Shown piece after piece: positions 40,141-43,828 of a stretch of DNA of 64,000 bases (position 1 is the stretch's first letter; every line of letters starts with the position of its first letter). The stretch spans positions 1 through 64,000 of the forward strand of contig CASDOQ010000013.1 in the NCBI GenBank assembly GCA_949282345.1, read 5' to 3'. A program made the translations under genes and the position numbers. The notes beneath the pieces were generated by a model that did not search any database, had not been told where the DNA came from, and saw only the letters and a program-made list of their open reading frames with translations. The stretch comes from an uncultured bacterium. GTDB taxonomy: Bacteria > Bacillota > Clostridia > Oscillospirales > CAG-272.

Positions 40141-41523
40141 TCAGAGCGAGAGGATCGAGGTGGCGATGCTGAAATACACCACAAGAGAAATGGCATCCAC
40201 CAGCGTGGTGATGAACGGACTTGCCATCACGGCAGGGTCAAAGCCCAGCCTCTTTGCCAGAATCGGCAGACTGCATCCGATCAGTTTGGCGGCCAGGATC
40301 GTCACGAGGAGCGAAAGACTGACCGTCAACGCAACGAGCGGCGTAATAGCGGGATTGTCGAGCAGAAGCCCGTCCACCAGCATGATCTTGGCAAAATTGA
40401 CTGCCGAAAGCGTTATGCCGCAAAGAAAGGAAACGCGCAATTCTTTATACAGTACGCGTAAGATGTCCCCGAGGCGGATCTCTCCGAGCGAGAGTCCGCG
40501 GATGATGGTGACCGAGGCCTGACTGCCGGAGTTTCCGCCCGTGTCCATCAGCATGGGGATAAACGAAGTCAGGATGACCGAGGCCGCCAAAGCGCGCTCA
40601 AAAGAGGTGATGATCATTCCCGTAAAGGTGGCGCTGACCATGAGGAGAAGAAGCCACGGAATACGCGAAAGAAAGATCTCAAACGGGGATTTGTGCAGAT
40701 AGGACTTCTCGCTCCCCGGCGTAATGGCCGCCATTTTGGCAAAGTCCTCTTCGGTCTCCTCGCTGATAACGTCCATGGCGTCGTCGATCGTAATGATACC
40801 GACCAGCCTGTCGTCGTTATCGACCACAGGAAGGGCCAGGAAATTATACTTATCAAACAGACGCGCCACCTGCTCCCGGTCATCGTGCGTATGGACGTTC
40901 ACGATGTCCTCCTCCATGATATCTCCGATCCTTGCGTTGACCGGAGAGGTCAGGAGCGTCTTGGCGGAAACGATGCCGATCAGGATACGGTACGCATCGG
41001 TCACGTAACAGGTATAGATCGTTTCCTTATCGATGGCAACACTGCGGATATGGTCGAATGCTTCCGAGACCGTCATATCGGCTTTCAGGCGGACGTACTC
41101 GGTCGTCATGATACTGCCGGCACTGCCCTCGGGATACTTGAGCAGTTCGTTGACCGAGCGGCGCATATCGGGCGGACAGTTGTTGAGAATACGGCGGACG
41201 AAATTGGCCGGCATTTCCTCCACCAGGTCTGCCGTATCGTCCGAGTAAAGTTCCGCAAGCACCTGCCGGAGCTCAAAATCGCTGAAAGAATCGATCAGCG
41301 TTTTCTGCTCATCGGCAGACATTTCCACCAGCACCTCTGCGGCCAGTTCTTTGGGCAACAGACGGTAGATCAGGATCTGTTCTTCGGTATTGAGTTCTTC
41401 AAAGAGTTCCGCAATATCTGCGGCTTTTTCATGTTCAATACGCCGGCGGAGGGCCAGGAGTTTTTTCTCCTCGAGATCGCGGCGCACCTCCTCAAGGAGG
41501 GTGACGGTTTTTTCTTCCTGCAT
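40141..41523 (-). CDS. mgtE: MgtE magnesium transporter
   Basis: Magnesium-gated Mg2+ channel in the cytoplasmic membrane, 460 residues. Start at 41521-41523, after AAAGGGAGATTACT. Order: N-terminal superhelical domain (to ~130), two CBS domains (~135-255, DRLVGIITIDDAMDVI), connecting helix (EEDFAKMAAI) and five membrane helices with the pore motif LMDTGGNSGSQASVTIIRG (~340). The C-terminus is GFDPAVMASPFITTLVDAI. Length is standard. The leader carries a leader-peptide ORF and terminator/antiterminator hairpins (see findings), so expression is probably controlled by attenuation. Confidence 0.97.
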   Translation of the reverse strand: MQEEKTVTLLEEVRRDLEEKKLLALRRRIEHEKAADIAELFEELNTEEQILIYRLLPKELAAEVLVEMSADEQKTLIDSFSDFELRQVLAELYSDDTADLVEEMPANFVRRILNNCPPDMRRSVNELLKYPEGSAGSIMTTEYVRLKADMTVSEAFDHIRSVAIDKETIYTCYVTDAYRILIGIVSAKTLLTSPVNARIGDIMEEDIVNVHTHDDREQVARLFDKYNFLALPVVDNDDRLVGIITIDDAMDVISEETEEDFAKMAAITPGSEKSYLHKSPFEIFLSRIPWLLLLMVSATFTGMIITSFERALAASVILTSFIPMLMDTGGNSGSQASVTIIRGLSLGEIRLGDILRVLYKELRVSFLCGITLSAVNFAKIMLVDGLLLDNPAITPLVALTVSLSLLVTILAAKLIGCSLPILAKRLGFDPAVMASPFITTLVDAISLVVYFSIATSILSL

Positions 41524-41573
41524 AGTAATCTCCCTTTCTTGTTCAGTATGAATAAAAAGGGCGGTATCAAACC

Positions 41574-41602
41574 AAAAAGGCGACAGGATAAGCACCTGCC
41601 GC
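41574..41602 (-). terminator. Conditional intrinsic terminator in the mgtE leader
   Basis: Minus strand GCGGCAGG (41595-41602) pairs with CCTGTCGC (41580-41587) around a 7-base loop, with one G-U pair, followed by CTTTTT. It lies between the leader ORF and the mgtE start, so it must be escaped for expression. Confidence 0.8.
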
Positions 41603-41618
41603 TTTAATCACCGGCAGG
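41595..41618 (-). promoter_or_regulatory. Antiterminator hairpin in the mgtE leader
   Basis: CCTGCCG (41612-41618 on the minus strand) pairs perfectly with CGGCAGG (41595-41601). The latter seven bases are also the 5' arm of the terminator, so the two structures exclude each other. The hairpin begins four bases beyond the leader ORF stop codon. Confidence 0.7.
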
Positions 41619-41620
41619 AC

Positions 41621-41722
41621 TTACCTTCTATTCCGAAATGTGCGAAACGAAAAAAGACCCGTGCCGCACGTTCTTCGCCCGACCGGAACGCTACCGCCGG
41701 ATATACTGCCGCATAGATCCAT
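41621..41722 (-). CDS. Leader peptide of mgtE (33 codons), probable
   Basis: ATG at 41720-41722, TAA at 41621-41623. A good Shine-Dalgarno sequence (AAAGGTGAT) lies 8 bases upstream. The peptide reads MDLCGSISGG, SVPVGRRTCG, TGLFSFRTFR, NRR. The stop codon abuts the antiterminator arm, as expected if the terminating ribosome decides which hairpin forms. No database family is known to me. Coding status is inferred from position and RBS. Confidence 0.55.
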   Translation of the reverse strand: MDLCGSISGGSVPVGRRTCGTGLFSFRTFRNRR

Positions 41723-41798
41723 TCGTATCATCACCTTTCTTATGATCTTTCATTTTTCCAAGGGGTCGACGGAGACATCAAGCACCGCGACCGTAAAA

Positions 41799-41827
41799 AG
41801 TATAGCACAGTACGCGTCGTTTGTAAA
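41799..41827 (-). promoter_or_regulatory. Sigma-A promoter of the mgtE leader
   Basis: Minus strand TTTACA (41822-41827), 17 bases, TATACT (41799-41804). Expected start near 41792, giving a ~270-base leader. Confidence 0.85.
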
Positions 41828-41844
41828 GACCCATTTTTACGGAT

Positions 41845-43071
41845 TTACACGACCTGAAAAATATAGAGTTTCAGGTAATCGGTCTCGGGTACGTTCCAGA
41901 GGATCGGGTGATCGGGGGACTGGCGGCGTTCCTCGATCTGCCGCAGGGAGACCCCTGCGTCCTCCGCCGCATTGTGAAGCATCTGGCAGAAGTTTGAATT
42001 TGTCATGAAATGCGAGCAGGAGCAGGTGGAGAAATAGCCCCCGCGAGGAAGCAAGCGCATGGCGGCGGCGTTGATCTGCCGATAGCCGCGCGTGGCCGAG
42101 GCCAACGTCGAGCGGCTCTTGGTAAAAGCGGGCGGGTCGAGGTTGATAAAGTCGTAGGGGTGTCCGCCGGCGGCGAGCGCCTGCTCCAGAAATTCGAAAA
42201 CGTCGGCTTGCACGAACCGGACTCGATCCTCCAGCCGGTTGAGGGCGGCATTCCGGGCGGCGACCTCCAGAGCGTCCGGGGAAATATCGACTGCCGTCAC
42301 CGAAGAAGCGCCGGAGGCCGCGGCGTGAAGCGCAAACCCGCCGGTATGCGTACAGAGATCCAAAAAGCGCATCCCGCGGCAAAGGCGGCCGACGGCCGGG
42401 CGGTTATACTTCTGGTCGAGGAAATACCCGGTCTTCTGCCCATTGACATAATCGACCCAAAAATCCAGTCCGCCTTCGCGGATGATGCAGTTTCCGGAGG
42501 CCTCGCGCGCCAGCCCCTCCATCGGGTAAAAGCCGGTGTGTTGTTCCATCCCCTCCAGTTCCCGGATCGCCACGTCGTTGCGTTCATAGATCGCTTCCGT
42601 CGTCTCTCCCATTTCCGAAAGCAGAGAGACAAGATGCGCGTAAAGCATTTCTTTGCGGCATTCGATTCCATAGGAAAGCGTCTGGGTGACAAGAATCTTT
42701 CCGTATCGGTCGACCGTCATGCCGGGAAGGCCGTCCGCCTCCCCGAACACCAACCGGCAGGCACCGAAATCTTCCCCCATCACCACACGGCGGTAGGAAA
42801 GCGCGTATTGCAGGCGGCGGCGAAAAAAATCACTGTCGAAACGGTCGTTCGGATTGCGCGAGAGCAAGCGGATGCGGATCTTGGAGAAGTCGTTGATAAA
42901 CCCGCTCCCCAGGTACTTGTCCCCCTCGCTCACCACGTCGACCAAGTCTCCCCGTGCGTAGGTCCCCTCAACGTCCAGCACCTCCTCGCCATAGACCCAC
43001 GGATGGCCTCCGCGCAGGGACTTCTCGGCTTTCCGGCTCACCGTGATCTTCGGGAATCCACGTTTTTTCAT
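41845..43071 (-). CDS. rlmI: Class I SAM-dependent rRNA methyltransferase (RlmI-like, PUA + Rossmann)
   Basis: Modifies a cytosine of 23S rRNA (m5C). 408 residues from the ATG at 43069-43071 (GGAAGGAGAAGGAGA before it). N-terminal PUA-type region (SLRGGHPWVYGEEVLDVEG, GSGFINDFSKIRIRLLSR), then the EEHEE-like middle, then SAM-binding FLDLCTHTGGFALHAA (~230) and the catalytic INLDPPAFTKSR region. Final signature is TCSCSHFM with paired cysteines. Exact target position inferred from RlmI family only. Confidence 0.92.
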   Translation of the reverse strand: MKKRGFPKITVSRKAEKSLRGGHPWVYGEEVLDVEGTYARGDLVDVVSEGDKYLGSGFINDFSKIRIRLLSRNPNDRFDSDFFRRRLQYALSYRRVVMGEDFGACRLVFGEADGLPGMTVDRYGKILVTQTLSYGIECRKEMLYAHLVSLLSEMGETTEAIYERNDVAIRELEGMEQHTGFYPMEGLAREASGNCIIREGGLDFWVDYVNGQKTGYFLDQKYNRPAVGRLCRGMRFLDLCTHTGGFALHAAASGASSVTAVDISPDALEVAARNAALNRLEDRVRFVQADVFEFLEQALAAGGHPYDFINLDPPAFTKSRSTLASATRGYRQINAAAMRLLPRGGYFSTCSCSHFMTNSNFCQMLHNAAEDAGVSLRQIEERRQSPDHPILWNVPETDYLKLYIFQVV

Positions 43072-43265: not shown

Positions 43266-43284
43266 AGAAGAAGCCGGTACCGGC

Positions 43285-43327
43285 GTGTGAGTTCGTAACC
43301 ATCCTCACATAAAACAAAACTAAGGAG
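43285..43327 (+). ncRNA. preQ1-I riboswitch overlapping the queT RBS
   Basis: GTGTGAG pairs with CTCACAT across a TTCGTAACCATC loop, followed by an A-rich tail (ATAAAACAAAAC) and CTAAGGAG. This is the small preQ1 class I plan: one stem, C-rich loop and A-rich tail that folds back to cover the Shine-Dalgarno. Located exactly before a QueT-family gene, the expected target. Ligand binding would shut translation off. Confidence 0.82.
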
Positions 43328-43333
43328 AAAAAA

Positions 43334-43828
43334 ATGAAGACCCGCAGATTCACCACTCGCAAACTCACCCGTAGCGCACTGATCGCCGCGCTCTACGTCA
43401 TCCTCACCTTTCTCTCGTCCCTCGTCGGTCTGTCGGGGCAAGGGCTGATTCAGTTCCGCCTCTCCGAAGCGCTGACCATCCTCCCCTGTTTTTGCCCGGA
43501 GGCTATCGGCGGGCTGTTCATCGGCTGTCTGCTCTCCAATCTGCTGACAGGAGCGCACATAGCCGATATCCTGATCGGAAGTTTTGCCACCCTCCTCGGC
43601 GCGCTCGGGGCTTATGTCCTGCGGAATCGGCGCTTTTTGGCTCCGCTCCCCACCGTTCTTGCCAACACCCTGCTCATTCCCCCGGTTCTCGTCTTTGCTT
43701 ACGGGATGACCGAAGCTTATTGGCTCCTATCGTTCTTTGTCTTCGTCGGGGAAGCAGGAGCCGCCTATATCGGCGGTGAACTGCTCTGGCCGATCCTGAA
43801 TAAAAAAAGAAACGTTTTCTTTACATAA
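43334..43828 (+). CDS. queT: QueT-family queuosine precursor transporter
   Basis: Substrate-binding S component of an ECF-type importer for preQ1 or a related precursor. 164 residues with five to six membrane helices (ALIAALYVILTFLSSLVGL, LTILPCFCPEAIGGLFIGC, ADILIGSFATLLGALGAY). The start (TRKLTRSALIAALYV) is a strong QueT signature, as is IQFRLSEALTILP. RBS CTAAGGAG is within the riboswitch. The energising ECF subunits are not in this window. The matching enzyme, Tgt, is at 50956-52356. Confidence 0.93.
   Translation: MKTRRFTTRKLTRSALIAALYVILTFLSSLVGLSGQGLIQFRLSEALTILPCFCPEAIGGLFIGCLLSNLLTGAHIADILIGSFATLLGALGAYVLRNRRFLAPLPTVLANTLLIPPVLVFAYGMTEAYWLLSFFVFVGEAGAAYIGGELLWPILNKKRNVFFT

Follow-up and report, generated by a model that had tools for sequence, protein, structure and literature searches.

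Control of Mg2+ transporter genes by a translated leader is known mainly from enteric bacteria, and the way in which such leaders sense the ion is disputed, with RNA binding set against elongation through proline and acidic codons. The leaders of enteric mgtA and corA contain a stem (stem A in E. coli) that sequesters the Shine-Dalgarno (SD) sequence of an upstream open reading frame (uORF); efficient translation represses and slow translation activates, and these leaders make use of Rho (PMC11552253). Codon-specific slowing has been proposed for mgtL (PMC6335274). In Mycobacterium tuberculosis, the pe20 M-box is accompanied by a conserved uORF2 (Rv1805A), which is reported to be specific to mycobacteria and to have a conserved proline (PMC12810186), while the mgtE motif (SRC-65-1) is a structured riboswitch candidate reported from Thioalkalivibrio alone (PMC11109978).

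Here we describe a leader of mgtE on the minus strand of a 64-kb stretch of DNA from an uncultured gut clostridium (the window, meaning throughout the whole stretch that was analysed). Like mgtL and corL (Salmonella, E. coli mgtA, corA), it has a short SD-led ORF directly before an Mg2+ transporter gene. Whereas mgtL and corL encode peptides rich in proline and acidic residues, the clostridial peptide is one of Gly, Ser and Arg with few residues of those kinds (that of the window begins with MDLCGSISGGSVPVGRR and has one Asp and one Pro), and AGU and CGA codons take the place of proline codons. The clostridial host, the intrinsic terminator of the window, mgtE as the main target and a tandem arrangement with the M-box at mgtA set the family further apart from the enteric leaders. 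The M-box (ykoK leader, RF00380) has the same kind of target and the same position, but the leader is distinct from it, and where both occur the M-box is a separate element just 5'. The M. tuberculosis uORF2 is likewise a conserved small ORF 3' of an Mg2+ riboswitch, although its target context is pe20 and not a transporter gene directly; SRC-65-1 shares with the clostridial leader its position 5' of mgtE. The trp and ilvB uORF attenuators offer a parallel in their leader ORF, their mutually exclusive antiterminator and terminator and the antitermination expected on early stalling; unlike amino-acid operon attenuators, the present system has no amino-acid product, and its putative control codons are AGU, CGA, ACA and AUA.

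The first-pass annotation of the window could put no name to this layout before mgtE, and we located no published account of the clostridial leader in the literature searched; as most subscription papers and preprints lay outside that search, its novelty is provisional. We put at about 60% the probability that the whole reading holds, namely that the window's leader controls mgtE as a translation-coupled attenuator and belongs to a clostridial family, its switching by Mg2+ included.

The mgtE leader and its relatives

The promoter, SD sequence, 33-codon ORF, A:B pairing and terminator annotated ahead of mgtE were all located on the minus strand, in the order promoter, SD, ORF, stop codon, arms A, B and C, mgtE (Table 1). 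Two details needed amendment: arm A begins 2 nt past the leader TAA instead of following it directly, and the terminator stem and its T5 tract are present, with one G.U pair in the stem and one C ahead of the T run. The leader ORF has Asp at codon 2 (D2), GGC AGT at codons 5-6 and GGG CGA at codons 15-16. As an SD-led uORF directly 5' of an Mg2+ transporter gene with D2, G-S (AGT) and G-R (CGA), it shares these features with the clostridial MDAGS leaders.

Table 1. Features of the mgtE locus, in window coordinates
Feature	Position	Strand	Remarks
Sigma-70-type promoter TTTACA-17-TATACT, TG before -10 (extended -10)	41799..41827	-	TTTACA 41827-41822, TATACT 41804-41799
Shine-Dalgarno of leader ORF, AAAGGTGAT	41730..41738	-	SD before uORF kept in relatives
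Leader ORF, 33 codons, MDLCGSISGGSVPVGRRTCGTGLFSFRTFRNRR, TAA stop	41621..41722	-	L221 homologue MDLCGSSSGKNDIGRSF..; family alignment A1
Signature codons 6-7, AGT ATA	41702..41707	-	8% and 9% of own codon families in source genome
Signature codons 16-17, CGA AGA, G-R motif	41672..41677	-	each 6% of Arg codons
Arm A, CCTGCCGG, 5' arm of antiterminator	41611..41618	-	2 nt past leader stop codon
Arm B, GCGGCAGG, common to antiterminator and terminator	41595..41602	-	
Arm C, CCTGTCGC, and T5 tract, intrinsic terminator	41574..41587	-	arm C 41587-41580, T5 41578-41574
Shine-Dalgarno of mgtE, AAAGGGAG	41530..41537	-	
mgtE, Mg2+ transporter	40141..41523	-	TIGR00400 457.6 bits; PF01769, PF03448, PF00571 (CBS)

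Regions 5' of mgtE homologues were compared on 80 clostridial contigs and at 30 loci of the window's genus. Most have an SD-led uORF at the same place (family L003-L118), with the pattern MD-x-G-S-S..G-R-S across Clostridia and starts such as MDAGSSSGTPVGRS (L067), MDAGSSNGIPDRS (Herbinix hemicellulosilytica, L075) and MDAGGSNGTIVGRS ([Clostridium] viride, L071); forms within the genus are more divergent (MSDAGSIR, MDYADSK, MSDGRSS). A uORF with at least four CGA, AGT, ACA or ATA codons at positions 2-16 precedes 44/107 mgtE genes versus 8/396 other genes, which places the leader ORF far above chance. L221, the closest relative identified, is 72% identical to the window in DNA over mgtE; it has identical promoter hexamers at the same place, a leader starting MDLCGS.., a G-R (CGA) pair and an intrinsic terminator past the stop codon, and this intermediate form ties the window's peptide to the canonical leader. 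The leader ORF is kept in frame in relatives across clostridial loci, L221 included; neither a disrupted frame nor a significant M-box match, two of the three outcomes that would have told against the annotation, was observed.

Close DNA relatives of the leader alone were absent from 59 genomes except the window's own, and a broader second family alignment (A2) proved less informative. R1, a sequence-only profile of the leader core, has no match in the window, and a peptide HMM gives the window's uORF a non-significant E of 0.7, the second-best locus of the window's 382 small ORFs with an SD before them. What places this uORF in the family is its position, its codons and the link through L221, where a profile alone would miss it; judged from sequence, the leader belongs, in divergent form, to a clostridial family of leader ORFs for Mg2+ transporters. 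That the locus is coincidental, an unremarkable 5' UTR in which the terminator is constitutive and the ORF accidental, is very improbable: adjacent antiterminator arms do accompany about 7% of the terminators in the window, but the leader ORF and its codons are conserved across genera before mgtE, and also before mgtA and CorA. A cis-acting function of the leader ORF for Mg2+ transporters is highly probable, and the comparative data lend good support to the original suggestion that mgtE is under the control of a translation-coupled element.

Codon usage in the leader ORFs

Of the Arg codons at positions 2-15 of the leaders, 71% are CGA; AGT accounts for 62% of Ser, ACA for 54% of Thr and ATA for 68% of Ile. 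The corresponding shares in mgtE of the same loci are 4.4%, 6%, 9% and 14.5%. A position-wise profile confines the skew to about codons 5-16, with normal usage from codon 16-17 on; AGT stands at codons 5 and 6 family-wide, and CGA is present in 36/36 members of a family core that was picked on amino acids only. Ordinary N-terminal codon bias was rejected as the cause, since codons 2-15 of mgtE lack the skew. Rarity alone fares no better: TCA, whose share in these mgtE genes is as low as that of AGT (6%), is hardly used in leaders, so codon identity seems to matter, and the retention of AGT AGT without CGA in an AT-rich mgtA group suggests that identity may outweigh rarity. A t6A-type explanation, which would extend to all ANN codons, also appears insufficient by itself, given that the leaders' preference for AGT over AGC exceeds that of mgtE about tenfold. 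Of the tRNA genes identified in the window's genome, which were collected piecewise, only that for tRNA-Arg(ACG) would by standard decoding rules read CGA, through I34. The third base of GGN and GCN (Gly, Ala) varies freely in the leaders while the particular codons above are fixed, which argues that the peptide and specific codons are both constrained.

These patterns bear on the alternative that the conserved codons constitute an Mg2+-responsive RNA element, an aptamer or a protein-binding loop, to which the ORF would be secondary. Many relatives do form a helix between the RBS and start of the uORF and its distal codons ~19-29, which encloses the conserved block as a loop and is reminiscent of the SD-sequestering stem of mgtL and corL; its own pairing exceeds 95% of swapped pairings in 25/77 leaders (binomial p 2.7e-14, uncorrected for kinship), it reaches 16-17 bp in mgtA leaders, and AGT persists in AT-rich genomes, in which this codon is unlikely to be rare. 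However, RNAalifold yielded no consensus structure in the leader core, and in the window the helix does not rise above chance (p 0.79 when tested by shuffling and 0.59 by swapping). The free third base of GGN and GCN codons, the retention of CGA before any next codon (AGT, GAA, CGA, TGT, TTG) and an AGT-to-CGA spacing of 0 to 9 codons that is in frame every time also speak against an RNA element, which we regard as unlikely.

Other pairings were seen in sub-groups. At L113-L117, the uORF start GGACGCTGACAGTAGTAA pairs with its own 3' end before the stop codon (e.g. TTACTAC..GCGTCC), an arrangement kept within one family. In mgtA leaders (L251-L256, L260-L262), a second long helix joins codons ~12-24 (GGTATATGTAAT..AAGAAGG) to a stretch 3' of the uORF (CCCTTCTTTT..ATTACATATACC).

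Predicted terminator switch and expression platforms

Pairings A:B (antiterminator) and B:C (intrinsic terminator, with a stem of 8 bp and T5) are mutually exclusive in the window's leader. A terminator with an adjacent antiterminator arose in 0.07% of shuffles of this leader; an adjacent complementary arm occurs at 3/29 perfect-stem terminators in the window, the mgtE leader included, so that a 7-bp antiterminator beside a terminator is not rare by itself and is weak evidence alone. When the window leader was folded with the ribosome footprint masked at several positions, a calculation of equilibrium and not of kinetics, the probability of the terminator was 0.94-0.96 when the A site held the leader stop codon, and it fell to 0.55 and 0.19 when the ribosome stood one and two codons short of it; with the ribosome absent, or with the A site at tested positions up to codon 30-31, the terminator stood at 0.00 and the antiterminator at ~1.0. 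By structure and folding the window combines a leader ORF, a terminator, an exclusive antiterminator and a predicted switch set by ribosome position, the components of a translation-coupled intrinsic attenuator, and the folding predicts that completion of the leader would lead to termination and slowing at codons 5-16 to antitermination.

This agrees, for the window sequence, with the annotated scheme of a terminator when the ribosome is at the stop codon and an antiterminator otherwise; the scheme was not reproduced in relatives, where switches differ and do not all run one way. The L221 terminator folds at equilibrium whatever the state of the ribosome. A common antiterminator was rejected, as the terminator is lost with an early ribosome in some leaders only (L101, L108, L123). 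The A:B:C switch of the window is not conserved, and a common platform acting through accessibility of the mgtE SD, computed for several ribosome states, was rejected as inconsistent in direction. Since switches differ between leaders, what has been conserved is the leader ORF, and it is the expression platform that varies. For the window itself we lean slightly towards the stop-codon switch as drawn, as the folding model predicts it.

Stem and T-run terminators lie within 50 nt (<=50 nt) past the uORF stop at L221, L230, L099, L101, L103 and L108 in the genus, and the T5 hairpin of the window is itself sound. This weighs against a leader that acts on translation or on Rho-dependent termination, in the manner of enteric mgtL and corL, with the window's hairpin incidental. 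Such a mode of action would suit the MDAGS-type relatives, most of which have no intrinsic terminator and show hairpins around the mgtE SD instead, and Rho is what the enteric mgtA and corA leaders use (PMC11552253); as an account of the window we think it improbable. A conserved TGTGTC-N-CTTCC-like stretch 3' of the uORF, complementary to the mgtE SD, was observed at L037, L041, L044, L046, L066 and L113, and apparent compensatory changes in such a complement (TTGCA/TGCAA) at L037 and L052.

Target genes and a probable response to magnesium

When R1 was run over 398 genomes, its six best matches all lay directly 5' of mgtE, and among those that followed were matches before an MgtA-type ATPase (L119), another MgtA (L135/L146) and CorA (L123; PF01544 186 bits, under the TIGR00383 cut-off). 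Similar uORFs precede MgtA at L143 and L153. In the family of genome G201, whose own mgtA is supplied by L135/L146, the leader search matched 15/20 genomes, 11 of these with mgtA at the matched locus; L257, L258 and L263, also matched in this search, have no mgtA or mgtE match and resemble ordinary coding sequence. Weak R1 matches were mostly sequence of that kind. No gene class besides Mg2+ transporters appeared among the true matches.

At the scanned mgtA loci of G201, G127 and G411, as well as at L250 and L253, the leader lies directly 3' of an M-box riboswitch, and M-boxes were found only at mgtA in the relatives scanned. The Rfam search of the 64-kb window returned no M-box at gathering score, RF00380 was absent from 41450-41860 up to E 10, and it was found in 0/60 genus genomes, with B. 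subtilis and L. lactis controls detected; the remark that the sequence has no M-box features thus holds for leader, window and genus. Control of mgtE by an M-box or another Rfam element was rejected, none being present at gathering score in the window or 5' of mgtE in 20 relatives. An mgtE match exists in 57/60 genus genomes; in G007, G010, G023, G025, G028 and G067 it is distant only (25-28% identity). A JUMPstart/ops match (RF01707) at 41687-41708 (-), GGCGGTAGCGTT, was discarded at 20.7 bits versus a gathering score of 35; it lies inside the leader coding sequence and is probably due to chance. Elsewhere in the window, a preQ1-I riboswitch-like element (RF00522) at 43282-43329 (+) scores 30.1 bits (E 9e-5), under the gathering score of 39, directly 5' of a small membrane-protein ORF (43334-43828) that has no match in NCBIfam and looks like a QueT-type ECF component.

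A codon-specific signature might also be expected of a leader that is not specific to Mg2+ and senses general translation capacity or the charging of particular tRNAs. The targets, three unrelated families of Mg2+ transporters with no other gene class among the true matches, and the tandem with Mg2+ riboswitches at mgtA make this quite unlikely. A response of the leader to Mg2+ is probable, and the occurrence of the same leader with its unusual codons before three unrelated transporter types in many clostridia makes it probable that these bacteria gauge magnesium by the movement of ribosomes through the leader.

We infer as follows how the leader responds to Mg2+, at which codons the ribosome stalls and which way control runs. 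With sufficient Mg2+, ribosomes would clear the block at codons 5-16, arrive at the stop codon and cover arm A, whereupon B:C would form and mgtE would be off. When Mg2+ is short, the AGU/AUA/CGA block would be weakly decoded and elongation slow or aborted, leaving arm A free to form A:B and mgtE on. That Mg2+ would act through elongation instead of another signal is suggested by analogy with mgtL.

In its widest form, which we advance tentatively and at somewhat less than an even chance, the proposal is of an undescribed and widespread clostridial ribosome-detector, in which fixed AGU/CGA (AUA/ACA) codons at positions 5-16 would slow the ribosome at low Mg2+ and so switch on MgtE, MgtA or CorA, with or without an M-box in series. 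Such a detector would be a second system of the mgtL kind, of independent evolutionary origin, in which the identity of codons takes the place of prolines. If true, another family of leaders, with fixed codons and a peptide unrelated to the enteric ones, standing before three types of transporter and in series with M-boxes, would make the idea of the ribosome as Mg2+ sensor testable by synonymous recoding, and it would account for the regulation of MgtE in clostridia that have no M-box.
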